Part shown: positions 1,795-47,723 of the stretch, piece by piece | Numbering within the stretch: position 1 is the stretch's first letter | Layout of the letters: each line of letters starts with the position of its first letter | IMG/VR virus record: IMGVR_UViG_3300048778_000586 | Location: 1-51,556 of that record | Strand: one strand, 5' to 3' | Source of the DNA: a virus | Length of the DNA stretch: 51,556 bases | Translations under genes and position numbers: made by a program | Notes under the pieces: model-generated | The model's input: the letters and a program-made list of their open reading frames with translations, nothing else | Databases searched by the model: none | Told to the model about the DNA's origin: nothing

Positions 1795-2541
1795 ATGACA
1801 AAAAAAATCAAGAAATCAAATCATGGAACCGGACATCCCACATTGGTCGAATCCGGCGGAAGCCGGAATACGCGCAACCTTAAGGTTGCGGCTACAGTTG
1901 CTTTCACCGGCGCTCGCGCGGAGTTCCTGGCCGGCAATCCCAAGGCGAAGAAGCTCCAAAAGGCGCATCTCCACGAAATCACCACCCGCATCGGCCGCTA
2001 TCGCCATGATATCCTGAGCTGGGCCACCCATGGCGTCAAACTCGCCAATGAAGCGCGCGAGATCGGCCTGCTCATCGTATCATACCTCGACACTTTGCCA
2101 GGCAAACAGATGACGCTCGACCTCTGGATGCAGTTGCAAAACCTGTTCATTGACCAGTACGGCAACCGCATCACCCAGGAAACGCTCAAGTGGTTCGTCA
2201 AAATCGCCAAGGCCAACCCGGACCCGTTTGACAGCATCCTCGACGTGCTGCAATGGCGCCAGCCGCTATTGCTCGCCAGCGGCGATGAGACGTTCCAGTT
2301 GACCGGCGAACGCCCGCAACAAGTCTTGCATGCCCCCGCCAATCCCATGAGCTTGCTCAAGGATTATTTCAACCCTGACCTGGAGGCCATCGTGACCGAG
2401 CTGCGCGCCAATATAAATTATTGCCCGGATGGCGAGCATTTCCGGCCCGACCTGTGCGAAACGCTGCGCGTGGAAATGGAACCCAAACTCAAACGCTATG
2501 ATAGCGCCCGGCTGTGGCTCCGGGGGGAGTTGGGAATTTGA
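1795..2541 (+). CDS. Conserved-looking phage protein of unknown function with an in-frame REP insert
   Basis: 248 aa, mostly alpha-helical, no catalytic motif seen. Residues 27-34 read RNLKVAAT and are the translation of a palindromic repeat at 1873-1896; the repeat is 24 bp, so the frame is kept. After it, a basic stretch (AKKLQKAHLHEITTRIGRYRHDIL) and long helices resemble small terminase or DNA-binding oligomerisation proteins, but this is only an impression. ATG at 1795 is the first start after the upstream gene. The insert sits in a hydrophilic N-terminal region, where it would be tolerated. Confidence 0.6.
   Translation: MTKKIKKSNHGTGHPTLVESGGSRNTRNLKVAATVAFTGARAEFLAGNPKAKKLQKAHLHEITTRIGRYRHDILSWATHGVKLANEAREIGLLIVSYLDTLPGKQMTLDLWMQLQNLFIDQYGNRITQETLKWFVKIAKANPDPFDSILDVLQWRQPLLLASGDETFQLTGERPQQVLHAPANPMSLLKDYFNPDLEAIVTELRANINYCPDGEHFRPDLCETLRVEMEPKLKRYDSARLWLRGELGI
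1873..1896 (+). repeat. REP-type palindrome inside a coding region (RNLKVAAT copy)
   Basis: A perfect 18-bp palindrome, CGCAACCTTAAGGTTGCG, followed by GCTACA. Read on the minus strand it is TGTAGC followed by the hairpin, so GTAG lies at the 5' foot as in REP elements. Further copies seen: 3254-3277, 11089-11112, 37456-37479, 41051-41085, about 47010-47036 and about 47690-47710, plus variants with other stems near 8093, 14377, 24371, 25363, 31446, 35753 and 36781. Confidence 0.85.
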
Positions 2542-4454: not shown

Positions 4455-6527
4455 ATGACCAGCACTGAAATCAAAGCAAACTCAGGCCACCTCACCCCGA
4501 CCCTCTCCCCCAAGGGTGGAGAGGAGGACAAGTTGCAGAGGCCGTTTTTTGAGGCGTTCATGCCGCGATACCGCGGCACGGTCTGGGAAAATGCCCGGCG
4601 CTTCCGGCTCATTGGTAAAGCCTATGAATCCATGCCGCCCGAACAGAACGGCTATTTCAATATCGCCACCTGCCGCCATCTGACCGGTCCGCTAACTGCC
4701 TGGCAACATCCCGATATCCGAAAAATTCTCGTCCGCAAAGCCATCCAGTCGCAAGGGTCGCTCGTCATTGATCTGGTCATTCCCTACATCATCGAGCATG
4801 ACCCGCGCAATACCTTGCTGCTGTTCGAGACTGACCCCAAGGCGATGGATTATTGCAGCATCCGGCTCATGGACACGCTCAAACAGCATCCGGTCATCGG
4901 CAACATGATCCTGGACGTGCAAAAGGTTGATCGTAATAACGTGACCACGACGTTCATCAAGTTCCCCGCCATGACGCTCTTGGTGGGCGGCTTAAACGAC
5001 AGCAACACGGCGTCGCTGGCGTGGCCGAACGTGCTCATAAGCGAGGCGTGGTTCCACAAGGCCGACGGGTTGCTGTTCAAGGCGTTTGGACGCACGGCGC
5101 AGTTCGAGCATACCTGCAAGATTCTGGTTGAATCCCAGGCGGGAATGGAGGGAGAGGATTTCGCGCGCGAATGCGACCTGGCCGTGCGCGTGCCGCTGAC
5201 CTGGGCGTGCCCGCATTGCGGCGGTCGGCAGGAATGGGAGTTCTCACAAAAAAGGGCGGAAGAGTTCAAATGCAGAATGCAGAATGCAGAATGCAGAATG
5301 CAGAATGAGAAACCAAAACCCGGCACCTATGCGGGCATGATCATACCGCACTCGACCCGGATGGCGGATGGCGCGGAAATCGAGGTCAGCGCGGATGAAC
5401 GGGCACTCGGCGCCGAGTGGGAATGTTATTGGTGCGGAGCGCGGCTTGCCGACACGCCACCATTACGCCGGCAGTTGATGGACAGTTATCAGCAGATCAT
5501 CCCATCACCGGCGCCGCGCGCGGTTGTGTTCGACTGGCCTGAAGAGGCGAGCCTTGGTATATCCTTTGCCGAGAGCGTCCGGCATTTTCTCACCGCCGAT
5601 GCCGCGCAAAAGGCCGGTAACATCATCCCGAAACAGGATTGGTATATGCAACGGCGCGCACGGACATGGAACCCAGCCCTGACAAGGCCGCAGATTGATA
5701 TTGCGCCCGGCAGTTATGATCCGAACCAGATCGTCCCCGATGAGCATTCGCGTAACATGGCCGTGGATTGCCAGCAGGATCAGGTGGTCATGGACAAGAC
5801 AGGCAAATCCGTCACCGGCTGGTTCTGGTACATCGTCCGGGTGGTGGACAAGTTCGGCAATAGCAAACAACTGGCGCGCGGCTATGTAAAATCGTGGGAG
5901 GAATGGATCGCCGTCCAGAAAAAGTGGAAGGTGCCGAATGACCGTGTGGTGATTGATATAGGGCAATGGCCAGGGCAGATTACCCAGCGCGCGGCGGATG
6001 AACGCGAAACCGTGGCCGTCAACAAGATGACGATGCTCGGCTTTATGAAGGACCGAACGGTGACGTGGTATTTGCTGGCCGCGGAACTAATGCGCCGCCA
6101 GTTCAAACATCGGGACGGCCAGATACGGCCGTGGTCGCCGCCGCAACCCATCCCCGCCACAGTGTTCGACAATGACGGGCGCCGGCAGGTGATTCATCTC
6201 AAGAAAATACGGTGGGACAACATGACGTTCAGGCTACAAGTGGACGCCCTGCGCAGCGGCGCACCGGGTATGCCGAAGATGGAAGTGCTGGGCAGGGAAT
6301 TCCTGGACGCGCAGACACAGGCCATGGAGCGCGGCGACCTGACTTATGAGCGGCAGATGGACGCGCAGTATTACATCCCGGAGAAAAGACAGTTCAAAGA
6401 ATTGCGACCGAATGACCATTACATGGCGTGCGAGGCGATGCTGCTGGTGCGGCAGGCCATGGACGGCATGATGGGGCATTTGGCCATTGCAGAAGATAGT
6501 AGTCAGGAGTCAGTAGTCAGGAGTTAA
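4455..6527 (+). CDS. Terminase large subunit, GpA family (divergent)
   Basis: 690 aa, usual length for GpA-type terminases, which pump DNA into the prohead and cut it. The ATPase region lies at about 85-215: the Walker A position is degenerate (RKAIQSQGSLVID at about 94-106), and the Walker B-like VLISEAWF at about 193-200 keeps the Glu. Two Cys pairs (CPHCG at 252-256 and CYWCG further on) form the zinc element typical of GpA. Candidate nuclease residues are in MAVDCQQDQ, VVIDIGQW and NDHYMACE. Repeats contribute residues about 11-24 (HLTPTLSPKGGEE), an insert at about 271-285 between the Cys pairs (CRMQNAECRMQNE) and the C-terminal SQESVVRS. Confidence 0.8.
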   Translation: MTSTEIKANSGHLTPTLSPKGGEEDKLQRPFFEAFMPRYRGTVWENARRFRLIGKAYESMPPEQNGYFNIATCRHLTGPLTAWQHPDIRKILVRKAIQSQGSLVIDLVIPYIIEHDPRNTLLLFETDPKAMDYCSIRLMDTLKQHPVIGNMILDVQKVDRNNVTTTFIKFPAMTLLVGGLNDSNTASLAWPNVLISEAWFHKADGLLFKAFGRTAQFEHTCKILVESQAGMEGEDFARECDLAVRVPLTWACPHCGGRQEWEFSQKRAEEFKCRMQNAECRMQNEKPKPGTYAGMIIPHSTRMADGAEIEVSADERALGAEWECYWCGARLADTPPLRRQLMDSYQQIIPSPAPRAVVFDWPEEASLGISFAESVRHFLTADAAQKAGNIIPKQDWYMQRRARTWNPALTRPQIDIAPGSYDPNQIVPDEHSRNMAVDCQQDQVVMDKTGKSVTGWFWYIVRVVDKFGNSKQLARGYVKSWEEWIAVQKKWKVPNDRVVIDIGQWPGQITQRAADERETVAVNKMTMLGFMKDRTVTWYLLAAELMRRQFKHRDGQIRPWSPPQPIPATVFDNDGRRQVIHLKKIRWDNMTFRLQVDALRSGAPGMPKMEVLGREFLDAQTQAMERGDLTYERQMDAQYYIPEKRQFKELRPNDHYMACEAMLLVRQAMDGMMGHLAIAEDSSQESVVRS

Positions 6528-8148: not shown

Positions 8149-10818
8149 ATGAAGCTTTTACTGCATAACGGCGCTCGAGCGGTTGCGCGGCCTGATACTG
8201 GACGGCTCGGCGAGTCGTCCCTACCTATTGAATGGCAGGGCGCATTGCGGCCGGATGTGACACAGGGCGAGATCGAACGCGCTAATAATCAGATTCAGCG
8301 TTTCGCGCGGCTCCATGAGCAGATGCGCACGTTATTCGATTCCAATGACCGGATGCAGCGCAGTTACGACAGCTCGACCACCACCCAGTTCAATGCGGAC
8401 ATGAGGGGTACGTTCGGCAGCGCCAATGCCGAAATAATGACGAGCGATTATTCGACGCGCGCGCGCTCCCGCACCATCGCCAAGGACACACCCCAGGGCA
8501 AAGCCGTCATCCGCACGTTCCAAAACAATGTCGTGGGCGATGACCCGTTCAAGCTCGACATGCGGTTCGGCACTTGGACGAAGAAAAAAAATGCCGTGAG
8601 CGGCCAGTCCGAACGCCAGTTCGTCGAGGACGAAGAGGTCAATGCCGCCATCGAGGCTGAATGGGAAATTGCCGGCCAGCCGGAAAATTTCACGGTTAAA
8701 ATGAACATGAGCCGGATGGAGGCGGAACGCATCATGGAGGCCAGTGCTGTGCGCGATGGATTCATTTTAATGCGCCATCAGCGCGGCTTCCCACGCAATC
8801 CCTTCAGGTACGCCGTGGAACTACTCGAGTGCGACCGTCTTCAGAGCGCTTTCATGGGAAAATCCGATACCGGAAATCCCATCCGGTTCAGCATCGAGTA
8901 TGACAAACAATGGAATTATCCGGTGGCTTACTGGATTTTGACGCGGCACCCGGGCGACATCTTCGGACAGTCCACCATGGCCGGCTCGGTCGCCGGCGGC
9001 AATGGCTATGGCGGATCAGACAGCCAGGGACAATTGTTCCGAGAGCGCATTGACGCCGGGGACATCGTGATGTTCAATAATCTCCGCGACCGGGCGGAAC
9101 AAGATATCGGATTTACCGAACTCGACGCCAGTGTGCAATCGCTCTGGCGGCTGTTCCAATACGAAAAGGCGCTCACCTACGCGGCCATTGCGAGTTGCAT
9201 GAAGCCGTTCTGGATCAAAAAGAATTTCCCGACCGGGATGCAGTTTACCACGGAGGAGATTGAAACCTTCCTCAAGAACGCCAATGTGGGCACCGAAGGC
9301 GGCGCGGGCGCGGCGGCGGACGGCGCGCCGGGCAACAGCGGGGCGACCTCGCGCCAGCAACGCATCGCCCAGCGCGTCAGCGCGGATGTGCCGGGATCCA
9401 CCCTCGACCTACCTTGGGGTCTGGAATTGATGCAGACCGACCCGAAGTTCCCCATCGAAGCGGCCCACGAATTTCGGCAGGATAATCAGCGCGACATCGC
9501 CGTGGCCACCGGCACGTCGTATCAGGACGTTTCCGGCGATTTCCAGAACCTCGGCTTTGCCGCGGCGCTCATGTGCCAGACGCCCAAGCAGGATTATTGC
9601 AAAATACGGCAGCGGAATTTCATTGATTGCGCCGTGCGCCCCGTGTTCAGAGAATGGCTGCGCGCAACGATTTTATCCGGCCGGTTCGATGAAAAATATC
9701 CCGATATCGTCGTCTCCATCACGAAGATCGAGGATTATGTGCAGGCGGCCAAGTTCAAAGGCAAACGCTGGGCTTTCGTCAATCCGCTCGTGCAGGCGCA
9801 GACGCTCATCATTATGATGGAGGCCGAAATCCTCTCGCCGCAACAGGTGCAGGATCAGTTGCCCGATGGCGTCAGCATCGAGACTCTTTACACGCTCATC
9901 GCCGAGGCCAAGGCCGAACACACAAAACACGGATTGGATGTCGAGGATGCTTCAAACATGGACGTGACACGACCCACCATCAGCAAGGGCGAACCAGGCG
10001 AAATCAGGCCCGCCCCGAAGGAATTAGGCGCTGGCGGTGCTGCGCAACCCATTCCCGCACGCCGACCGGCCAATCCTGTCAGAAGCCAATTGGGCCGCAA
10101 CCTGGACACCTCGGATTCCGTGCTCTATCTCGTCCGGCACGGTGAGACTCAGTTGAATGCGGACGGCATGACTCGCGGCTGGGCCAACCCGCCTCTGAAT
10201 GATGCCGGCCGGAAAGAGGCGGCCGATGCCGCCGACGAACTGGCGAACCGCGGCATCACCCTTATCGTCACATCCGACCTGACGCGCGCGGTTGAAACCG
10301 CCACCATTATCGGCGAGAAAATAAACGCGCAGGTCGTCGTTGATCCCGGATTGCGGCCGTGGGGATTCGGGCCGGAGATTGAAGGCAAAAATTCCGTTGA
10401 GGTCGCCCCGCAGATCGAGCATTACGCACGCAACCCCGATGAACGCCCCGCCGGCAGTTATCCCGATGGGCAATTGCCCGAGACATTCAATCAATACCGT
10501 AAGCGGATTTTCACGGCCATTGAGAAAATCCAGAACACATATCCGTCCGGTGCCACTGCCATCGTCACCCATTACCGCACGTTCAAGGCGCTGGAATCAC
10601 GCACGGAAGGCCATGATGTGGACGTGGACACGTTCATCGCGCGCGCACCGGACAATCCCGGGTCGGTCTATGTGCTCGAAAATGGGGAGCTGTCGGAGAA
10701 GCTACCTGAGAAATCCAGCCCCGAAAGCGTTCGGGGTTCAAGCCGGAAAAGAAAACCGCGTGGCATCTCGAAACAGACGATGGCGCTGATACAAGGGCAA
10801 GGGGATGGGAAATCGTAG
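8149..10818 (+). CDS. Lambda-family portal protein fused to a C-terminal histidine phosphatase
   Basis: 889 aa; ordinary lambda-type portals have about 500-560. Residues about 35-620 match the portal pattern: early RARSRTIAKDTPQGKAVIR and NVVGDD, then LLECDRLQ, DAGDIVMFNNLRDRAEQDIGFTELDASV, and SYQDVSGDFQNLGFAAAL, the conserved region before the clip. Portals form the dodecameric DNA channel at one capsid vertex. From about 655 a complete phosphoglycerate-mutase-like domain follows: LVRHGET with H664 as phosphoacceptor, SDLTRAVETA, PWGFGPEIEGK as candidate acid and VTHYRT with H808. The N-terminus (GRLGESSLP) is encoded by a palindromic repeat at 8200-8225. The phosphatase substrate is unknown. 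Confidence 0.85.
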   Translation: MKLLLHNGARAVARPDTGRLGESSLPIEWQGALRPDVTQGEIERANNQIQRFARLHEQMRTLFDSNDRMQRSYDSSTTTQFNADMRGTFGSANAEIMTSDYSTRARSRTIAKDTPQGKAVIRTFQNNVVGDDPFKLDMRFGTWTKKKNAVSGQSERQFVEDEEVNAAIEAEWEIAGQPENFTVKMNMSRMEAERIMEASAVRDGFILMRHQRGFPRNPFRYAVELLECDRLQSAFMGKSDTGNPIRFSIEYDKQWNYPVAYWILTRHPGDIFGQSTMAGSVAGGNGYGGSDSQGQLFRERIDAGDIVMFNNLRDRAEQDIGFTELDASVQSLWRLFQYEKALTYAAIASCMKPFWIKKNFPTGMQFTTEEIETFLKNANVGTEGGAGAAADGAPGNSGATSRQQRIAQRVSADVPGSTLDLPWGLELMQTDPKFPIEAAHEFRQDNQRDIAVATGTSYQDVSGDFQNLGFAAALMCQTPKQDYCKIRQRNFIDCAVRPVFREWLRATILSGRFDEKYPDIVVSITKIEDYVQAAKFKGKRWAFVNPLVQAQTLIIMMEAEILSPQQVQDQLPDGVSIETLYTLIAEAKAEHTKHGLDVEDASNMDVTRPTISKGEPGEIRPAPKELGAGGAAQPIPARRPANPVRSQLGRNLDTSDSVLYLVRHGETQLNADGMTRGWANPPLNDAGRKEAADAADELANRGITLIVTSDLTRAVETATIIGEKINAQVVVDPGLRPWGFGPEIEGKNSVEVAPQIEHYARNPDERPAGSYPDGQLPETFNQYRKRIFTAIEKIQNTYPSGATAIVTHYRTFKALESRTEGHDVDVDTFIARAPDNPGSVYVLENGELSEKLPEKSSPESVRGSSRKRKPRGISKQTMALIQGQGDGKS
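8200..8225 (+). repeat. REP-type palindrome in the portal N-terminus
   Basis: GGACGGCTCG-G-CGAGTCGTCC pairs over ten positions with one G.T pair and is followed by CTACC. Relatives with other stems are at 11008-11028, about 25488-25515, about 29898-29925, 17477-17503 and 18422-18446. The copy here is translated within the first 25 residues of the portal protein. Confidence 0.75.
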
Positions 10819-30974: not shown

Positions 30975-31367
30975 ATGGGTGGTTATATTCCAAGAAAACC
31001 ATCGGGCAGGAACATCAACAGTGCGGCGGTGATGTTCATGCGCGCGGTTTGGGATTATTTGTGGGGTGGAAAATTCCCGTTCATTGACACGGACACGGTG
31101 AAATGGGACAGGTCGAGCAGAGGATATGCCGCCCATGCCAAGCAAGGTCGCGGCGGCGGCACTTCCTCGCCGGCGACATTGGACATCACCGGGGAATGGG
31201 ACCCGACACGGACGTATAGCTTGAACCAGATCGCTGTCATCAGCATGGGCAGCAATGCCGGCACTTATGTCTATATCAATGCCACAGCTTCAAGCGGCCA
31301 TGCGCCCTACGCCGGCGGCGGCTGGTGGATGCAGTTGCCCATGGGGCAGTTGGGGACGTGGATGTAA
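30975..31367 (+). CDS. Small unknown tail-module protein
   Basis: 130 aa. Begins MGGYIPRKPSGRNINSAAVM, Gly- and aromatic-rich, with a C-terminal part of beta character (AVISMGSNAGTYVYINAT). The ITGEWDPTRTYSLNQIAVIS stretch resembles carbohydrate-binding or tail-fibre connection motifs (xWDxxxxYxxGDxVxx, like chitin-binding type 3 modules), but this is a weak similarity. A block with heptads and hairpins flanks it on both sides. Confidence 0.5.
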   Translation: MGGYIPRKPSGRNINSAAVMFMRAVWDYLWGGKFPFIDTDTVKWDRSSRGYAAHAKQGRGGGTSSPATLDITGEWDPTRTYSLNQIAVISMGSNAGTYVYINATASSGHAPYAGGGWWMQLPMGQLGTWM

Positions 31368-31480
31368 ATGGTTGAGGGTTGAAGGTTGAGAGTTGAGAAA
31401 TGGTTGAGGGTTGAAGGTTGAAGGTTGATAGAATAAAAAATAAAGTCTCAACCTAAAGGTTGAGGTTACAAGGAAAAAAT
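31368..31480. repeat. Heptad block and CTCAACC palindrome
   Basis: Two runs of GGTTGAGGGTTGAAGGTTG heptads, then CTCAACCTAAAGGTTGAG with a GTTACA tail. This is a stem variant of the CGCAACC palindrome in which both arms changed together. Confidence 0.85.
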
Positions 31481-35792: not shown

Positions 35793-36668
35793 ATGAAAAG
35801 ATTATTTTTGACGCTGGGTTTGGGGGTCGGACTTTCAATCCTCAATTCTCAATTCTCGACCGCTTTTGCCATCGGCACGAACCAGACGGTTTCGGCGACC
35901 ATCACCATAACCAACCCACCGACCGGTATGCTCGGGGAATGGATTTCTATTCAGGGAAATGTTTATACATGGACGAATGCCGCTCCCACTTACGGCCAGA
36001 TTCAAAGCGTTTCCAACGTATTGAGTTGCAGCATTTCACCCACGAATTCCTGGTTACTCACCAACGCGCCCATTGGCAATACCAACCTCAACGGTTGGTG
36101 GAACCTCTGGTTCACCAATTCCAACGGCGATATTTATCTAACGAATAAACTGCACACGACCACTAATTTTTTGTATTTGGTTAATTATATTAACATCGGA
36201 ATCCCTGAAAGTGAATGGATTATTGATCCTATCACGAACGATGTGCCTGATTATTTTCAAAGTCTATTTTACGCATCCCCCGTAAATTATCTTTGCAATT
36301 CAGATATAACCAATTGGTTTGACAATAATACTGAAAATCGAGTGCCGATTGTCCTTAAAAATTTCCGGTCATCCATAAATTCCGCAGTAATCCCCAGCAC
36401 CGTCAACCTATTTAATCAATTGACCAATGACTGGTCCACGAGTCTGCGATTTGCTTACACAAGCGGCACGAGCTTTACGATTTCCACGTTTGTCAATAAA
36501 TCCCTGAGCATCAGTAATTCACCCGGATGGATGACGCTGACGCTGACGAATAATATCATCACCGGCGGCAATACTCCGGCTACGATGACCGTTTCCAATT
36601 TGTCGGTGCATTCGCTCACGTTGCTGGATAATACCAACGGGCCGAATACGATCACGAGTTGGCCGTAA
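35793..36668 (+). CDS. Exported fibre-like protein sharing its C-terminal domain with the S53 peptidase
   Basis: 291 aa. Signal peptide of 26 residues (MKRLFLTLGLGVGLSILNSQ ending FSTAFA); the SILNSQFST part is encoded by reversed heptad repeats (CTCAATTCTCAATTCTC). The mature protein is beta-rich. Residues 38-65 (LGEWISIQGNVYTWTN) and the last 85 (NLFNQLTNDWSTSLRF, SNSPGWM, TLLDNTNGPNT) match the C-terminus of the peptidase coded next. No catalytic motif. Shared domains in neighbouring genes suggest a common attachment site or a duplication. Confidence 0.65.
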   Translation: MKRLFLTLGLGVGLSILNSQFSTAFAIGTNQTVSATITITNPPTGMLGEWISIQGNVYTWTNAAPTYGQIQSVSNVLSCSISPTNSWLLTNAPIGNTNLNGWWNLWFTNSNGDIYLTNKLHTTTNFLYLVNYINIGIPESEWIIDPITNDVPDYFQSLFYASPVNYLCNSDITNWFDNNTENRVPIVLKNFRSSINSAVIPSTVNLFNQLTNDWSTSLRFAYTSGTSFTISTFVNKSLSISNSPGWMTLTLTNNIITGGNTPATMTVSNLSVHSLTLLDNTNGPNTITSWP

Positions 36669-36732
36669 AATGGTTGAGAGTTGAAGGTTGAATGTTGAGA
36701 GATTTACCACAAAGACACGAAGACACAAAGAC

Positions 36733-38988
36733 ATGAGTCATTTTAACGCAGAAGGCGTAGAGAAGCGCAGATTAAAGAAACGCAGCCTAAAGGCTGCGAC
36801 TACAATTTCGGTTACTTTGTGCCTTTGTGTCTTGGTGGTTAATTCCGCTTTTGCCCAAAGCGGGCGCCAGATGTTGCACGGTCATGTGCCAAAGGCCATC
36901 GCGCGATTGCATCTGCAATCCGTCGGGCTGCTCACCAATACCGCGCGCCTGAACCTCGCCATCAGCCTGCCGTTGCGCAACCCGGCCGCCCTTGATGATT
37001 TGCTCCGCCAAATCCAAGACCCGACGAGCACGAATTATCATCGGTACCTGACCCCGGGGCAGTTCGCAGCGCAGTTCGGACCGTCGGAACAGGATTATCA
37101 GGCGGTCATCGCCTGGGCGCGCACAAATGGGTTTGCGGTGAACGCAAGGCACGGCAGCCGGCTTGTCGTGGACGTGAATGGCGCGGTACCGGACATCAAC
37201 AGAACGTTTGGAGTGACACTGCGGACGTATCAGCATCCGATCGAGCACAGGACGTTTTATGCGCCGGATACCGATCCGTCCGCGAACCTGCCGGTTTCCA
37301 TTTTGCACATCGGCGGGTTGGATAATTACTCAAGAATGCGGGCGAATTTAACAATTCAGCCGATTACGAATGGAATTACAACACCTCTCCCCAGCCCTCT
37401 CCCCGCGGGGCGCGGAGAGGGAGAAGACGGACGGCTTTCGGCTGGGACAGTAATGCGCAACCTCAAGGTTGCGGCTACAACGAATAATGCGATTCCGAAT
37501 GCAGGGTCGGGACCGGGCGGGACGTATCGCGGCACGGATTTCCGCGCGGCATACGCCCCGAATGTCACACTGACCGGGTTAGGCCAGAAGATTGGGCTGC
37601 TCGAGTATGACGGTTATTACGTTAATGACATCACAAATTACGAAGGTCAGGCCGGGTTGCCGGCCGTTACGTTGATCAACGTGGCCGTGAACGGCGGCGT
37701 GAGCAGTCCGGGCGTCAACAATATGGAGGTTGCACTGGACATCGAGATGGCGATTTCCATGGCGCCGGGCGCGTCACAAATCATCGTCTATGAAGCGCCC
37801 AATGGCAGCACGTCCTGGGAAACCATCCTCTCCCAAATGGCCGATGATGATCTAGCTGCACAATTGAGCTGTTCGTGGTTCGATATGTCCCTGGGCGCAC
37901 CAGACCTGTCGTCCGAGGCGATTTTCAAACAGATGGCCGCGCAGGGACAATCGTTCTTTTGTTCGTCCGGCGACAGCGATGCGTTTATCAATGGGATCCC
38001 GTTTCCCGAGGAAAGCACCAATGTCACTCAAGTCGGCGGCACGGCCTTGACGACCACCGGTGCCGGCGGAACGTATGTTTCGGAAACGGTCTGGAACGCC
38101 GGTGGCGGCGAGGGCAGCAGCGGCGGCACGAGCACTAATTTTTCCATCCCTATCTGGCAACGGACGATTTCCATGACCACCAATCATGGCTCGACTACGA
38201 TGCGGAACACGCCTGACGTGGCACTGACCGCGAGTAACATTTATGTCGTCTATAACAACGGCAGCAGCGGCAACGCCTCCGGGACGAGCGCGAGTGCGCC
38301 GTTGTGGGCGGGGTTCATGGCGTTGGTGAATGAACAGGCGGCCATTGGCGGGCATCCGGCCATTGGATTTGCCAACCCGGCCATCTACGCGATCTGCACC
38401 AACGGGAATTATAGCGCCGATTTCCATGACATCATCACCGGCAGCAATACCTGGAGTGCCAGCCTGACGAATTATCAGGCCGTGCCGGGTTACGATCTCT
38501 GCACGGGCTGGGGCACGCCCGCCGGCCAAAGCTTGATTGATGACCTGGCGGGGCCTCTGCTTGAATCGGTCAGCAGCGTCACCAACCCTAATTCGGCCAC
38601 TATCATCATTATTGTGCCGCCCACAGGCACCAATGGCGAGTGGATTGCCGTTCAGGGCAGCACTTATACATGGACGACCTCGCCGACCGGCGCGGGCCAG
38701 ATTCAAAGCACGAACAGCGCGGCACAGAGCGCCACGAACTTGTTTACCGCGCTGACCAATGATTTTCCGAGCAGTCTGCGGTTCAAGTTCAATGGCAGCA
38801 CGAATTTCACGATTTCAACTTATTTACGGGGCGTGTTGAGCGTCAGTAATTCTCCGGGCTGGATGCGCGTGGCCATCAATACAAATGTCGTGGCGGGCGG
38901 CAATCTGACTGTATCGAATTTTATGGCGCAGACGATCACGTTGCTGGATAATACCAACGGGCCGAATACGCGCACCAACTGGTGGTGA
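36733..38988 (+). CDS. Secreted sedolisin (S53) peptidase with pro-domain and fibre-type C-terminal domain
   Basis: 751 aa from ATG 36733. The signal peptide (residues 1-41) ends VTLCLCVLVVNSAFA. A pro-kumamolisin-type pro-domain spans about 45-210 (TNYHRYLTPGQFAAQFGPSE). The catalytic domain at about 265-635 keeps E332 and D336 (NNMEVALDIE), D414 (SSGDSD) and S519 (GTSASAP); GYDLCTGWGTP belongs to the calcium site. Sedolisins are acid serine-carboxyl peptidases. The linker between pro- and catalytic domains is made of two repeats (TPLPSPLPAGRGEGE and RNLKVAAT). The last 130 residues are the domain shared with 35793-36668. A secreted peptidase within tail genes is unusual. Confidence 0.88.
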   Translation: MSHFNAEGVEKRRLKKRSLKAATTISVTLCLCVLVVNSAFAQSGRQMLHGHVPKAIARLHLQSVGLLTNTARLNLAISLPLRNPAALDDLLRQIQDPTSTNYHRYLTPGQFAAQFGPSEQDYQAVIAWARTNGFAVNARHGSRLVVDVNGAVPDINRTFGVTLRTYQHPIEHRTFYAPDTDPSANLPVSILHIGGLDNYSRMRANLTIQPITNGITTPLPSPLPAGRGEGEDGRLSAGTVMRNLKVAATTNNAIPNAGSGPGGTYRGTDFRAAYAPNVTLTGLGQKIGLLEYDGYYVNDITNYEGQAGLPAVTLINVAVNGGVSSPGVNNMEVALDIEMAISMAPGASQIIVYEAPNGSTSWETILSQMADDDLAAQLSCSWFDMSLGAPDLSSEAIFKQMAAQGQSFFCSSGDSDAFINGIPFPEESTNVTQVGGTALTTTGAGGTYVSETVWNAGGGEGSSGGTSTNFSIPIWQRTISMTTNHGSTTMRNTPDVALTASNIYVVYNNGSSGNASGTSASAPLWAGFMALVNEQAAIGGHPAIGFANPAIYAICTNGNYSADFHDIITGSNTWSASLTNYQAVPGYDLCTGWGTPAGQSLIDDLAGPLLESVSSVTNPNSATIIIIVPPTGTNGEWIAVQGSTYTWTTSPTGAGQIQSTNSAAQSATNLFTALTNDFPSSLRFKFNGSTNFTISTYLRGVLSVSNSPGWMRVAINTNVVAGGNLTVSNFMAQTITLLDNTNGPNTRTNWW
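36781..36842 (+). repeat. Two repeats encoding the signal peptide of the S53 peptidase
   Basis: CGCAGCCTAAAGGCTGCG with ACTACA (36781-36804) gives RSLKAATT, the basic n-region. It is followed by GTGCCTTTGTGTCTTGGTGG and TTAA, the reverse of the window's AACCACCAAGACACAAAGGC repeats, which gives LCLCVLVVN, the hydrophobic core. Confidence 0.75.
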
Positions 38989-39060
38989 AAAAAATAGTTG
39001 AAGGTTGAAAGTTGAAGGTTGAAGGGAAAAACAACCACAAAGAAACTCAAGTCGAATTTT

Positions 39061-41013
39061 ATGAGATGGATTTTCAAATTACTTTTGATGGCGGTTGTGC
39101 TCTCAACTCTCAACTCTCAACTCTCAACTACTTGCCATGCCCAATTGTCTTATGTGGACACGACCACGCCGTCCGCCAATAACCCGACGAATTGGGGAAC
39201 CATCACCATCCCCGGCGTGGCGACCAATGCACCGTTTTCGACGGTCAATACGAGTGTCTTCGTCATCGGCACTCCGACTCCCACGGCGTTCAACATGATC
39301 AATGGGAATTTTTTGTGGATTTACGATTATCTGATGACAAATAGTTTTTTCAACGGGGGGTATGGGACATCCACAAATCTTGCCGGTGGCGCGCTCGATC
39401 AGGTCACGAACATCGCTGAAAATGTCAGCGGGAATGGCACAGACACCAACGCCGTCAGAATCATGTCCGGGAGCGCATTCAACCTGACTGCCACCAATCC
39501 GGTCACGCTCTACAACCCGACGCCGTATTACACCAGCACGAGCTTTAACCCTACGAATTTTCCGCCAGACACCAACGGCATTGTCTGGTGCGATGGAACG
39601 CTCATCACCAACGCCATCACCGGCACGAACATGGCTGGGCCGTATTATTTCGACTCCACATTGTGCGCGGGCGCGATGACGAATGGCAGTGATTACATGA
39701 TTGTGAGCTTGTTTCCGCCAGCGAACACAAATTCAGCCGGGCCGTTCAATGCGAACACGAATTATCCGATTTCTGTGTTGACGAACGCCAGCGGTTTCAC
39801 GGTTTTATCGGGTTACACGGGGACGAATTATCTGGATGGGTATTACCCGGACGCCGCTTTGGGGCCGGGTGTTTATACCAATGACAACTGGTTTGTGGTG
39901 TTCACGACCGGCATTTGCCCGAACCAGAACGGGCCATATTACATCGCCCCGGCGTATGGCGCGGGTGCGATGACGAACAGTTGCGGGGAGATTACTTATG
40001 TCTATTCGAGCACCCCATCCAGTAATCAGATTTACGGGGTCACTTCCATTGACGTGACGAATGCCCCGGCGCAGCACTATACAAATCTGGACGCGGCGAA
40101 TCTGATTTTTGCGGAAAATTATACGCATCCCGGCATCACAACTAATCTTCTTGTATTCGGGTCTTCTCAAGATGGAATTTATTTCGTTTCTCCTCCTTAT
40201 GATTGGTTTAACCAAGCAGGACAAAACATCAACGTAGCAAGTGGTTCTCCTACTTATTGGGATTTGTCGGTGGCTGGTGGTTACTTCTACGCTCCCAACC
40301 CACCAATCCCTCCGTCATCTTATACAATTTACCCTGGCGGAACCGCTCTGTTTAGAACAAATAATCCGACGTGCTGGTCTCTCTACCAATCAAACGCATG
40401 GCGGTTTTACATGGCCACGAATGTTGCGCTCGCGCCATTCCCGTTCGAGACGATTACCACGACCGGCCTCGTCAGCCAGATGTTTTATGTCACGAATGTG
40501 TCGGTGTTCCCGAACTCGAACACGGTCTATACCGCCAGTGACGGCAGTTCGGTGGTTTTCAATGAAGCTCCGGTTGGTTTTACAACCATTCTTGGCGTGA
40601 CTTGGAATCAGATTCCTGCGCCAACAAACATAATATACGTCGTTACACCTCCCATGTCGGCACCACCAACCCCACCAACGACGCCGACGCCATCGCCAAT
40701 AGGAGGGGGGAATCATTATGTCATGGCCCAAGTAAGCGGTGTTTGGAAGTATCTCCCTGAAGGTAATGAATATATTACCCAAGTTGGGAATATGAATTTG
40801 GACCAGGGCAGATTATCCATTCCTCCAAAATATCCCCTGTCATATTTGCTCATTGATAGTGGAGGAAATGCCTCTTTAATCATTAAAGGTAGAACCTCAG
40901 CTTACCTTTCGTGGTTAGATTGGAATCCACAGATTCCATCAGATGCGTTTTACCCTTATGTGAACTCTGCACCATCAATCAATACCGGAGTACGTGGTCT
41001 TTATTCTAATTAA
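39061..41013 (+). CDS. Large exported Asn/Thr/Tyr-rich fibre-like protein
   Basis: 650 aa from ATG 39061. Signal peptide MRWIFKLLLMAVVLSTLNSQ ending TTCHAQ; the segment STLNSQLST comes from four CTCTCAA-type heptads (39099-39131). The mature chain is highly repetitive in style (SGYTGTNYLDGYYPD, GPYYIAPAYGAGAMTNS; the motif GPYY..AGAMTN occurs twice), suggesting tandem beta modules. A Pro-rich hinge (SAPPTPPTTPTPSPIGGG) precedes a short final domain. It resembles tail fibres or cell-surface stalk proteins. No enzymatic motif. Confidence 0.65.
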   Translation: MRWIFKLLLMAVVLSTLNSQLSTTCHAQLSYVDTTTPSANNPTNWGTITIPGVATNAPFSTVNTSVFVIGTPTPTAFNMINGNFLWIYDYLMTNSFFNGGYGTSTNLAGGALDQVTNIAENVSGNGTDTNAVRIMSGSAFNLTATNPVTLYNPTPYYTSTSFNPTNFPPDTNGIVWCDGTLITNAITGTNMAGPYYFDSTLCAGAMTNGSDYMIVSLFPPANTNSAGPFNANTNYPISVLTNASGFTVLSGYTGTNYLDGYYPDAALGPGVYTNDNWFVVFTTGICPNQNGPYYIAPAYGAGAMTNSCGEITYVYSSTPSSNQIYGVTSIDVTNAPAQHYTNLDAANLIFAENYTHPGITTNLLVFGSSQDGIYFVSPPYDWFNQAGQNINVASGSPTYWDLSVAGGYFYAPNPPIPPSSYTIYPGGTALFRTNNPTCWSLYQSNAWRFYMATNVALAPFPFETITTTGLVSQMFYVTNVSVFPNSNTVYTASDGSSVVFNEAPVGFTTILGVTWNQIPAPTNIIYVVTPPMSAPPTPPTTPTPSPIGGGNHYVMAQVSGVWKYLPEGNEYITQVGNMNLDQGRLSIPPKYPLSYLLIDSGGNASLIIKGRTSAYLSWLDWNPQIPSDAFYPYVNSAPSINTGVRGLYSN

Positions 41014-41017
41014 CGAC

Positions 41018-41668
41018 ATGAAAATGCGACACGGATTTACACAGACGCAGCGCAACCTGAAGGTTGCGGCTACGGTTGCGGCTACGGTTTTTGGCTTGGG
41101 ACTCTCATCTCTCGTCTTCCAACCTCTAACCGCTTTTTGCCAAGGCACCACGGTGGCAACCAATTATCCTGTGACCGTTCTGACTGCGGGCAGCGATTCG
41201 CAATTGAACGCCAATGGGCAGGAGTTCGACCCGGCGGGCGCGGCGTTCTACGTCTGGTCAAACCTCGGCAACGGCGGCGTGGCAACCATGCTGAATCCGG
41301 CCAATACATTTTATGGTGGGTTTAATGGCAATTTCACCGGTAGCTTTGCCAGCAACGCCGCGCCTTATACCGTCACGGCCAACCAAATCACGTTGAACGT
41401 TCCGTTCACGAACTCCTACGGCTCGCGCTTAGCTGTTTGGGTGGATTGTTATCTAACAAATGGCGTGACCGGCGACGCAAGCGTGGAGATGACGAACCTA
41501 ACCACGGTGTATCCGGCGCATTTCGCCGACCTGCCAAACGGTCTGGCCTCTGCCAATGGCATCGTGACGCTGTTTGATATGATTTCGACAAACGACGTTC
41601 TGATCGTCACCAACATCAGCACTAGCGGCGGGACTGTGAGAATAACAAGCTCGGTGAAACAGGAATGA
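41018..41668 (+). CDS. Exported beta-rich protein with REP-encoded signal peptide n-region
   Basis: 216 aa from ATG 41018, starting four bases after the previous stop. The N-terminus MKMRHGFTQTQRNLKVAATV is largely the translation of the palindrome at 41051-41068 and its direct GCTACGGTTGCGGCTACGG extension; then follows the hydrophobic core VFGLGLSSLVF and a probable cleavage after FCQG. The mature domain is a beta-sandwich-like chain (YTVTANQITLNVPFTNSYGS). It lies in the fibre region; function unknown. Confidence 0.6.
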   Translation: MKMRHGFTQTQRNLKVAATVAATVFGLGLSSLVFQPLTAFCQGTTVATNYPVTVLTAGSDSQLNANGQEFDPAGAAFYVWSNLGNGGVATMLNPANTFYGGFNGNFTGSFASNAAPYTVTANQITLNVPFTNSYGSRLAVWVDCYLTNGVTGDASVEMTNLTTVYPAHFADLPNGLASANGIVTLFDMISTNDVLIVTNISTSGGTVRITSSVKQE

Positions 41669-41774
41669 ATAAATGGTTGAGGGTTGAAAGTTGAGGGTTG
41701 AGGATTTACGGAGAATTTGACTTGGGTAGATTTTTGATTGCGGAGCGATAGGGACATCGCTCCCTACCTGATTT
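41669..41774. repeat. Heptads and the covariant GGAGCGAT palindrome
   Basis: GGTTGAGGGTTGAAAGTTGAG heptads, then GGAGCGATAGGGACATCGCT and CC with CTACC at 41741-41768. In this copy one pair of the stem changed from C-G to A-T compared with the GGCGCGAT form, and both arms agree. Confidence 0.9.
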
Positions 41775-42497
41775 ATGTTGTATTTGGTCATTGATCGCCA
41801 GACTGGCGCGCTCGTTTCGTTTAACGGCAGCGCCACGAAGTTGCCCACCCTTTTTCAAACCAATTCCGTTGAGCTTCAGCTCCAGTTCGTGGATGTGGAT
41901 CCGTCCTCAGGCACAAACAGCATCACGGTGGCCGATGTCCATGCCCAGGCACCCGCCGTAACCATCGCGTCGCAATTGACCGGCGTGGAGGCCAATGAAG
42001 CCACCTACACTCTCGCCCAGGCCGTTGAAGGTGATTTTACATGGGACGCCGAGAATCTGTGGTTCACCGGCACACTCGAGCTGAACACGACCGCCATGGC
42101 CGCGTGGATAGGCGCCAATTCGTCCGCGACGGGCACGCTCGAGATTGATCTGATGACCGGCGGCTCGGACCCGGTAACGCTGTTCCAAGGCGCTGTGACC
42201 GTGAATGCCAATGCGTTCTTCGCCGGCACGCAGTTGAATGTGCTCGGCACCGGCGGCACGCTGCCGCTCGTGAACGGCGCCGGCGTGGCCATAGCCGGAA
42301 ATACGGTGACTGTGACGGGTCTGAATTGGGCGACGGCGCCAAGCCAGGTGATTGTGCTCGTCAATGTGCCGGCGGGCGCGGGGCTGATCCAGGGGAATTA
42401 TGTCATCGGCAGCGCGACGGCGGCCGGATTCCAGTTCGCGTTGAGCGGGTTGCCGGATAACGCGGGTTATACGTTCACTTACATTCCCATACTTTAA
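41775..42497 (+). CDS. Unknown tail-fibre-region protein, paralogue of 34752-35363
   Basis: 240 aa. LVIDRQTGALVSFNGSATKL, FQTNSVELQLQFVDVDP and EGDFTWDAENLWFTGTLELN align with the 34752 protein; the C-terminal 70 residues (VTGLNWATAPSQVIVLVNVP) are specific. Beta-rich, no signal peptide, no enzyme motif. It lies between two exported proteins. The two paralogues may be structural modules with different C-terminal heads. Confidence 0.55.
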   Translation: MLYLVIDRQTGALVSFNGSATKLPTLFQTNSVELQLQFVDVDPSSGTNSITVADVHAQAPAVTIASQLTGVEANEATYTLAQAVEGDFTWDAENLWFTGTLELNTTAMAAWIGANSSATGTLEIDLMTGGSDPVTLFQGAVTVNANAFFAGTQLNVLGTGGTLPLVNGAGVAIAGNTVTVTGLNWATAPSQVIVLVNVPAGAGLIQGNYVIGSATAAGFQFALSGLPDNAGYTFTYIPIL

Positions 42498-42584
42498 CCA
42501 CAGATGAACACGGATGAACCAATTCACCGCAGAGGCGCAGAGGCGCAGAGATTTTTCTTATTATGAAATCAGGAAAATAGGAAT
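42498..42584. repeat. CACAGATGAACACGG and GCAGAGGCGCAGAGG repeats
   Basis: AACCACAGATGAACACGGATG and CGCAGAGGCGCAGAGGCGC-type repeats, relatives of blocks at about 34624, 48669 and 50049. A GATATGA-type leader precedes the next gene. No gene. Confidence 0.7.
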
Positions 42585-44900
42585 ATGAAAAATAAAAAAC
42601 AGTTTATCCGCATCCGCCGTCGCCAAGGCTATGGCGGACAAGGATTACGCCGATTAACGCAGATTTGTGCGATAGGATTGGGACTCTCAACTCTCATCTC
42701 TCAATTCTCAACTACTTGTCAGGCTCAACAGAACATTTATCACGGGAAATTGCAGGGCGATCTGAATGGAGGCGGCAATAGCATCACGAATGCGGGAACT
42801 GTGAGCGCCACCAATCTTGTTGGTAATTTGAGCGGCACGAACCTCATCCCCGGCACGGTCAGCAGCAATGCGTTTGATGCGCCAACCAAGGCGATGCTGG
42901 GCGGTGGCGGTGGCAATCCAGCGGCGGCTGTCACCAACCAGTTCAATGAGTTCACCGGGCCGAGTAATAAATTTGACGGGCCGATCTACGGTTCGCTCAT
43001 CGGGAATTCGTCCAGCGCAACCCACCTTGCCAGCGGCGACACGGTAACAAACTTGACCGTCACCAACTTGACCGCGACTGGCGCGAACTTGACGGGTAAC
43101 ATCAATCCGACTAACAAGGTTTCAGCAGCAACCAACGCTGACAACGCGACCACGGCGGGGATGGCAACCACGGCATCAAACTTGATTGGAGGAGGCTCGG
43201 TCATTCAACCGTTGAACTTCACGAATTTTACCACAACGACGAATTGGGATATGCAGGGCTGGCTAAATTCTCTGCCGACAGTCGCGAATGACGCATCTGG
43301 TGTTGGTGGCGGCACAATAAAGTTACCGGCGGGAATTTTCTTAATCAGCACAAATTCACTCTTTGTAAGCGCACCGTTTCATCTTGAAGTGGATGGAGCG
43401 GGTAGAGGGTTGACGTGGCTTGTCGTAACTAACATGAACGGAACTACGCCGGGCATGAGTTACGGCAGCACAAGCGGAAATTTCATGTCGGCCACATTTA
43501 AGGACTTTAACGTCGTCAGCATGAATGACGTGACGAACAGTATTTTATTTCTTTACCAATTATCGGACGGCCAACTGGATAACGTGTTCTTTAGTTATTG
43601 GCAATACGCCACGAACGCGCATGGTGAGTTTGGAGGTGGTTACGGAATGAACGCAACCAACCTTGTCGGATTCAACATCCGGTCAATAGCCGGACAGATA
43701 GGAGCAAACTTGCACAATGTTGCAGTCGGTGGATTGCTCGATGGCGGCGAGTTCGCGGCTGACCATGTGCGGATTGACGGCTATTTCGGGATTGAAGATT
43801 GCGGCATGAACAGCACGTTTTCTGGCGGCACTTCTTCTGGATGGGGGACAAACATTGAAAGTTTGGGGGGCGGTTTGCTTTTTAATAACAGTGACCCCCT
43901 TAACATACCGATTGGCGACATCTTGATACACGGGATGCACTCCTACCATTGTGCGCTACCCATAATCAGGAATTGCCCGGATAATCCCGGCACGTTCGGA
44001 CAATTCACTGTCGAGGCCGGAGATTTTGGTGAAGGCGGCGGAGCGAGAAGTGCAACGGTCTATACCAACTCATTCGCAATGGTGTTTAATTTCAACAACC
44101 AATGTCAATCTAGTGTATTCAATGGCTTTCCAGAACGTGACCAGACTTTAATTTTTACTGGCAGCGCATGGAATCTATTAACGAATCCACCGCCCAATGT
44201 GGTAGAGGAAAGAATGGGAACAAACAACGCAATCATATTCAGCATAGCGGACGTGGACACGTTGATTGTGTCCAACAAAGCCGTGATTGCCCTTGCACCT
44301 GTGATTGCGCCGAGTTTTGCAGTGGGGGGAACGAATCTGACATTGATTCTCACTAATTACCAATCCCTGTCAATCGCCGCGCCGAACACGAACCTCTATT
44401 ACTTCACCACCACAGGCGGCACGCAATTGTTTGGAACTACCAACGGAAATCTGGGTGGTTTTGCTTATGATAGTCTCATTAACCAATACACGAATGGCTA
44501 CATCTATATCTATCTGGATACGGGTCTGGGTTACATTGTGGCGACAAACTCGTTTTATCCAGTTAATACTTCGCCTTTGGCTAATTGTAGTGTCACAGGC
44601 GCGTCTAATAAGACGAACTGGCTTTCAACAGCTTGGAGAAACTCTTCCTCCATAACTGTGTTGGGTGTATCACCAACTTGGGGCACTAACACAGTTCCCA
44701 AAATCTTTTCAACCAATAATCTACCGGGTGGTTTGGCTCAGGTTTCCATCGGTAACAGCGGTAGTCAGACAAACATCTTTCACACAAACACCGCTCCTAC
44801 TACCGTAACGATTGGTGTAACCGCGCCAGATTTATGGGAAAATGCCTATGACATAAACGGCAACCCGGTTGGTTGGATGCCAGTCTGGACGAATCATTGA
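42585..44900 (+). CDS. Exported tailspike-like beta-helix protein
   Basis: 771 aa. The first 48 residues form an unusual signal peptide: basic RIRRRQGYGGQGLRRLTQI, derived from a CGTCGCC..GGACAAG element (42617-42643) and a CGCAGATTA element, then GLGLSTLISQFSTTCQAQ from reversed heptads. After it, LNGGGNSITNAGTVSATNLV is the usual phage-fibre start. From about 220 (DASGVGGGTIKLPAGIFLIS, LEVDGAGRGLTWL) the pattern of pectate-lyase-type beta-helix tailspikes appears, which bind or cleave surface sugars. The C-terminus is Asn/Thr-rich. Signal peptides are not normal for tailspikes. Confidence 0.72.
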   Translation: MKNKKQFIRIRRRQGYGGQGLRRLTQICAIGLGLSTLISQFSTTCQAQQNIYHGKLQGDLNGGGNSITNAGTVSATNLVGNLSGTNLIPGTVSSNAFDAPTKAMLGGGGGNPAAAVTNQFNEFTGPSNKFDGPIYGSLIGNSSSATHLASGDTVTNLTVTNLTATGANLTGNINPTNKVSAATNADNATTAGMATTASNLIGGGSVIQPLNFTNFTTTTNWDMQGWLNSLPTVANDASGVGGGTIKLPAGIFLISTNSLFVSAPFHLEVDGAGRGLTWLVVTNMNGTTPGMSYGSTSGNFMSATFKDFNVVSMNDVTNSILFLYQLSDGQLDNVFFSYWQYATNAHGEFGGGYGMNATNLVGFNIRSIAGQIGANLHNVAVGGLLDGGEFAADHVRIDGYFGIEDCGMNSTFSGGTSSGWGTNIESLGGGLLFNNSDPLNIPIGDILIHGMHSYHCALPIIRNCPDNPGTFGQFTVEAGDFGEGGGARSATVYTNSFAMVFNFNNQCQSSVFNGFPERDQTLIFTGSAWNLLTNPPPNVVEERMGTNNAIIFSIADVDTLIVSNKAVIALAPVIAPSFAVGGTNLTLILTNYQSLSIAAPNTNLYYFTTTGGTQLFGTTNGNLGGFAYDSLINQYTNGYIYIYLDTGLGYIVATNSFYPVNTSPLANCSVTGASNKTNWLSTAWRNSSSITVLGVSPTWGTNTVPKIFSTNNLPGGLAQVSIGNSGSQTNIFHTNTAPTTVTIGVTAPDLWENAYDINGNPVGWMPVWTNH

Positions 44901-47672: not shown

Positions 47673-47723
47673 GACGCAACCTGAAGCGCAGCCTAAAGGC
47701 TGCGGCTACAATTACGGTTACAA

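Follow-up and report, generated by a model that had tools for sequence, protein, structure and literature searches.

The DNA analysed here, called the window throughout, is the whole of a 51,556-base record classed as virus (IMGVR_UViG_3300048778_000586), in which prophage genes are present. It contains five adjacent open reading frames (ORFs), named by their first positions (35793, 36733, 39061, 41018 and 42585), whose predicted products begin with Sec-type signal peptides, or leaders, that contain stretches of repeat DNA scoring above a null in local alignments. The signal peptides are predicted from their n-, h- and c-region anatomy and AxA-like cleavage sites (marked ^). The ORFs, the repeat stretches and the alignment scores are as follows.

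35793..36668, + strand: ORF for a predicted exported-type protein, leader MKRLFLTLGLGVGLSILNSQFSTAFA^I, no Pfam match.
35832..35859, + strand: reversed heptads, SILNSQFST, c-region of the 35793 leader (score 19 against a null maximum of 16.5).
36733..38988, + strand: S53 (pro-kumamolisin-type) peptidase from an ATG start, Pfam PF09286 at 4e-25, leader MSHFNAEGVEKRRLKKRSLKAATTISVTLCLCVLVVNSAFA^Q.
36779..36804, + strand: GTAG-tagged repetitive extragenic palindrome (REP) with the tag at its 3' end, RSLKAATT, n-region of the S53 leader (score 26).
36812..36843, + strand: reverse complement of the CCACxAAGACACAAAGG repeat, VTLCLCVLVVN, core of the S53 leader (score 21 to 36702-36730, minus strand).
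37382..37478, + strand: two more in-frame repeats (TPLPSPLPAGRGEGE...RNLKVAAT), linker between the S53 pro-domain and catalytic domain (score 38).
39061..41013, + strand: ORF for a predicted exported-type protein, leader MRWIFKLLLMAVVLSTLNSQLSTTCHA^Q.
39100..39129, + strand: four perfect reversed heptads, LSTLNSQLST, c-region of the 39061 leader (detected by Tandem Repeats Finder; score 26).
41018..41668, + strand: ORF for a predicted exported-type protein, leader with RNLKVAATVAAT.
41050..41089, + strand: GTAG-REP and 12-nt tandem GGTTGCGGCTAC, together giving RNLKVAATVAAT, n-region and start of the core of the 41018 leader (score 29).
42585..44900, + strand: ORF with a GGGTIKLPAG motif, predicted exported-type protein, tail-spike-like by motif only.
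42613..42683, + strand: two repeat stretches (RRRQGYGGQG and GLRRLTQI), n-region of the 42585 leader (scores 23 and 23.5).
42684..42713, + strand: reversed heptads, LSTLISQFST, c-region of the 42585 leader (score 35 to 39100-39144, flank in common with 39061).

Each leader stretch was aligned locally to the rest of the window. Random coding-sequence segments, 25 draws per length class, served as the null and gave median scores of 13.5-14 and maxima of 16-16.5 at most lengths and of 20 at 40-49 nt. Scores of 19-35 were obtained for the heptads, the REPs, the S53 core and the n-region of 42585, and the DNA around the S53 n-region REP (36777-36815) matches 47683-47721 at 92% over 39 nt. The peptides that the initial annotation had quoted as translated repeats are all encoded where it had placed them: SILNSQFST in 35793, VLSTLNSQLST in 39061, LCLCVLVVN and RSLKAATT in the S53 ORF, RNLKVAAT in 41018, and LSTLISQFST and RRRQGYGGQG in 42585. 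Its statement that repeats supply the n-, h- or c-regions holds for residues in all five leaders and for most of the S53 leader, but not for the hydrophobic cores of 35793 and 39061, which are unique sequence (scores 14.0 and 11.5, not above the null). The S53 core, LCLCVLVVN, is the only hydrophobic core made wholly of repeat; another stretch of the same leader, MSHFNAEGVEKRR, scores 15.5 and so does not exceed the null maximum of 16.5. No repeat above the null was found in the leaders of 14429, 15596, 46299 and 50113, and roughly half of the window's signal-peptide genes are thus free of repeats.

The leader DNA that 39061 and 42585 have in common extends past the heptads. Since the five repeat-bearing leaders are neighbours and partly have leader DNA in common, they do not represent five independent events. 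A duplicated domain ending in TLLDNTNGPNT is also common to the 35793 protein and the C-terminal part of S53 (36400-36668 and 38650-38985). An AlphaFold model of 42585 computed from two sequences was uninformative (predicted local distance difference test score 26).

Homologues in other genomes bear on whether export or the repeat came first. S53 homologues from four Verrucomicrobiota genomes, 45-51% identical to that of the window, have hydrophobic leaders free of repeats, and the repeat-made S53 linker is absent from homologues in four genomes. Among cellular genes, a heptad-bearing signal peptide was found in one only, the collagen-like gene L392 of genome G002, in which a heptad c-region reads VNTKRIVLLVWLCVSTLNPQLSTAFAQ. 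None of 14 other copies of this gene, from five genomes, has the heptad; all but one have an ordinary leader, and the remaining copy is without an obvious leader in its frame. Export is therefore ancestral in the S53 and L392 families, and the simplest account is that in both the repeat took the place of some of a leader already present. The initial annotation had proposed that cytoplasmic proteins become exported through repeat insertion, and had suggested a search for non-repeat signal peptides among homologues as a check. Such signal peptides are what the S53 homologues and all but one of the L392 copies have. A system that converts proteins to export would be expected to have cytoplasmic homologues free of the repeat; these homologues have leaders instead.

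Taken together, the repeat families cover 9% of the window, but unevenly: 21% of the DNA between genes and 4.6% of that in coding sequence. The palindromes of the window are GTAG-tagged REPs, with a terminal GTAG motif beside a palindromic stem and with GTAGCCGCAACCTTNAGGTTGCGC and GTAGGGCGCGATGTCCCTATCGCGCC as reverse complements. They are dispersed, REP1 being present in 11-13 copies and REP2 in 9. The exact GTAG-REP palindrome GCGCAACCTNAAGGTTGCGGCTAC is also found in genome contigs of assemblies labelled as about ten phyla, including Aerophobetes, Chloroflexi, Planctomycetes, Nitrospirae, Verrucomicrobia, WOR-3 and Omnitrophica. The Y1 transposase family PF01797 is present in all five Verrucomicrobiota genomes searched (G001, G003, G096, G107 and G353) and is absent from the window and from L024, a related viral locus described below. 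A further repeat, of about 97 bp, occurs as two tandem copies with a partial copy nearby (window 20088, 20893 and 20990).

The heptads, of consensus GTTGARR, have stops in all three frames of one strand and none on the other, and each frame of the readable strand gives the same heptapeptide, STLNSQL and variants. Because the other orientation stops every frame, heptads can last inside genes in the readable orientation only, and the 'reversed' heptads of the leaders therefore require no special mechanism; their orientation is survivorship. An array in the other orientation is exemplified by the following.

31367..31428, + strand: forward heptads right behind a stop codon, with stops in all frames.

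Forward arrays of the window (1733, 17434, 31370, 36674, 41677 and others) start close behind the stops of upstream genes, often as stop-AAATGGTTGAG. Among cellular arrays (loci L163-L220) the readable strand is the strand of negative local GC skew in 26 of 26 cases in G096 and 39 of 43 in G107, the latter including 16 of 18 intergenic arrays. This polarity suggests replication-linked insertion or expansion. The description of the repeats as hydrophobic when translated in reverse is borne out by the reversed CACAAAGG repeat of the S53 core (hydropathy 2.6), the strongly hydrophobic one of the repeats tested, but not by the heptad. Its peptide STLNSQL is polar and stands in leader c-regions, and the mean Kyte-Doolittle value of -0.24 rules out the idea of a hydrophobic heptad.

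Repeats also lie in frame in proteins that are not exported, the first two of which serve as cytoplasmic controls.

4488..4531, + strand: another repeat family, in frame at the N-terminus of the terminase large subunit (GHLTPTLSPKGGEED).
8200..8226, + strand: GTAG-REP, in frame at the N-terminus of the portal protein.
1872..1895, + strand: GTAG-REP, in frame (RNLKVAAT) in the non-exported ORF 1795.

Further in-frame repeats from the same set of families are present in ORFs 10879 and 49522. Readable heptads within genes of four Verrucomicrobiota genomes (G096, G107, G001 and G003) occupy mostly internal, linker-like positions, as judged on simple longest-ORF gene calls of which some are spurious. 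That the same repeats occur in non-exported proteins such as terminase and portal, and in relatives mainly inside coding regions away from leaders, argues against conversion to export. In the related genomes G001 and G003 one loop of the same aminotransferase-like enzyme (L332 and L346) carries in-frame repeat peptides that are differently expanded. Within the window, on a hand-made gene list in which two of the five reversed-heptad arrays lie in ORFs that are possibly not genes, reversed heptads cluster at gene N-termini (5/5 within the first 50 codons, P = 9e-5); given this position, they do not significantly favour signal-peptide genes (3/5, P = 0.11). On the same list a repeat of at least 20 nt lies in the first 50 codons of 5 of 10 signal-peptide genes versus 4 of 29 others (Fisher P = 0.03).

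It is very probable that export came first wherever this can be checked, and that the repeats in the leaders are tolerated passengers of existing signal peptides. Small mobile repeats (GTAG-REP palindromes, GTTGARR heptad arrays and a few others) would have colonized a verrucomicrobial-type prophage in the way that they have colonized chromosomes of that phylum, the REPs presumably mobilized by REP-associated tyrosine transposases (RAYTs) of the Y1 type and the heptads probably expanded by replication slippage. Copies within genes would survive only if free of stops and where the protein tolerates added residues, namely at gene ends, in linkers and in signal peptides. As charge, hydrophobicity and a small-residue cleavage site are all that a signal peptide requires, repeat-derived residues could take over parts of an existing leader. 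Duplication of leaders, or recombination between them, probably helped to spread the pattern, because some neighbouring leaders have flanking sequence in common. From their anatomy the repeat-bearing leaders are predicted to work in export.

Some points weigh against this reading. The evidence for ancestral export comes from the S53 and L392 families, and 35793 and 39061 gave no homologues in searches of IMG/VR (41018 was not searched). In addition, the clear heptad copies in verrucomicrobial-type genes of phage records (the window, L024 and a second phage, L309) lie in signal-peptide c-regions. Cellular genomes differ in that their heptads are mostly internal. Small numbers and shared descent may explain the contrast, although it could also reflect specific recruitment of heptads to c-regions.

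The recurrence of heptad c-regions could in principle mark an actively recycled leader module of this lineage and its phages, recombined at the repeats, which would make the repeats a point of signal-peptide shuffling. Tolerance combined with leader duplication is far likelier, and the recycled module must be considered unlikely. Quite unlikely is the related idea that the heptad-coded LSTLNSQLST c-region is favoured by selection in the lineage, for instance for cleavage, and is kept or recombined between leaders. It would account for the recurrence of this c-region in three leaders of the window, in L024 and L309 and in cellular G002, and for the flanks common to 39061 and 42585 and to 35793 and L392 (TCTCGACCGCNTTTGCC). 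However, homologues without a heptad c-region look equally normal, half of the signal-peptide genes of the window are repeat-free, and heptads elsewhere occupy many non-leader positions.

The proposal that cytoplasmic proteins become exported when a reverse-hydrophobic repeat inserts at their start codon is very unlikely. The S53 leader, which combines a REP with a reversed CACAAAGG repeat of truly hydrophobic translation, does fit it, and 35793, 39061 and the unsearched 41018 have no known homologue free of repeats. For S53 itself it is largely refuted, the S53 and G002 collagen-like homologues being of exported type without repeats. The polar heptad peptide is a further argument against it, as is the scarcity of the CACAAAGG pattern of the core repeat, found in 2 of 388 sampled Verrucomicrobiota genomes and in one other viral contig, there in a doubtful ORF without a leader.

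That the repeats are 5' untranslated DNA, with translation starting downstream, is highly improbable. The leaders are predicted from anatomy, from DNA alone, and PMC3733652 attaches this very caution to N-terminal REPs; yet the repeats are placed between start and cleavage site, initiation at an in-frame start past the n-region of S53 would remove that region and retain no more than about 14 residues of leader, and the homologues make export expected. Phase variation, in which gain or loss of one 7-nt unit shifts the frame and toggles an exported protein, is barely credible: the unit's length cannot be divided by three, it stands close to where exported-type genes begin and it reaches 4.3 perfect copies at 39100-39129, but copies are few and mostly imperfect (35832 and 42684), similar arrays lie within enzyme-like genes of other genomes and no length variants were seen.

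Other genes of the window are as follows.

ORF 142: integrase.
ORF 4455: terminase large subunit.
ORF 8149: portal protein.
ORF 11805: major head protein.
ORF 22679: replication initiation protein.
ORF 27761: tape-measure protein (weak match).

Given these genes, the window is a prophage or phage contig. Its host may lie near the Verrucomicrobiota, to judge from the S53 homologues and the repeat types in common; the REP2 pattern is present in 2 of 145 sampled genomes of that phylum. L024, which turned up with the 42585 query, is the sole related viral locus detected, and its homologue is 94% identical to 42585 across residues 190-735. Single-protein searches of IMG/VR with the capsid, S53, 39061 and 35793 proteins gave no relatives, and the L309 protein as query matched its own contig alone. 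S53 had no match among named phages, and the portal protein matched at 22-27% identity only. Sec-type leaders are also predicted on several genes of head and tail regions (window 14429, 15596, 16566 and 42585; L309:1543; L024:8502 and 9833), which is odd since virion proteins assemble in the cytoplasm.

The window thus offers a worked case of mobile non-coding repeats becoming protein on a prophage, with one leader mostly repeat, and illustrates the tolerance of Sec signal peptides. It also carries a warning for predicted proteins: repeat DNA is the source of peptides that belong to no domain, among them NSQLSTLNS, RNLKVAAT, RRDRDIAPY and LTPTLSPKGGE.

Rickettsia palindromic elements, of about 100-150 bp, lie in frame in many protein genes and are tolerated there. 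The repeats of the window resemble them in their in-frame insertion into protein genes and differ in unit size (7 nt and about 25-30 bp). The TAACTGA direct repeats of Beggiatoaceae are likewise 7-nt units that stop all frames when read one way and give a repeated heptapeptide when read the other way, and their readable copies lie mainly at protein peripheries (PMC4679880). The unit here is GTTGARR, and forward arrays follow stops, whereas TAACTGA arrays precede starts; signal peptides are unmentioned for TAACTGA repeats in PMC4679880, and here heptads are found in leaders. GTAG-REPs have been described near gene 3' ends and within ORFs, N-termini included, with the highest intragenic number in a verrucomicrobium, Opitutus terrae (available text of PMC3733652). 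The palindromes of the window share with these RAYT-associated elements the terminal GTAG (read as CTAC), the palindromic stem, the many copies and the intragenic positions. They differ from what that text describes in their place within signal peptides and on a prophage that has no RAYT of its own; neither 'phage' (as a word start) nor 'signal peptide' is used in it.

A search for literature on signal peptides with Verrucomicrobia repeats found nothing relevant. The initial annotation knew of no described system of this kind; this was mistaken, because Delihas (2007) reported a Yersinia signal peptide made partly of a mobile repeat. The predicted signal peptide of the exported protein YPO1552 is partly YPAL/RU-2 repeat. 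In other genera, YPO1552-like sequences are likewise predicted to carry signal peptides, which there lie outside the repeat (PMC2759123; PMC2229807). As in YPO1552, a mobile repeat here encodes part of the predicted leader of an exported protein, and repeat-free homologues, in this case of S53 and L392, also have a signal peptide. YPO1552 involves a 168-bp element in one gene; here five neighbouring leaders are involved, with short heptads, REPs and repeats of other families. Intragenic GTAG-REPs, readable heptads and a signal peptide partly made of repeat are thus already known, and the recurrence of heptad c-regions on four replicons (the window, L024, L309 and G002) is a modestly new addition to them.
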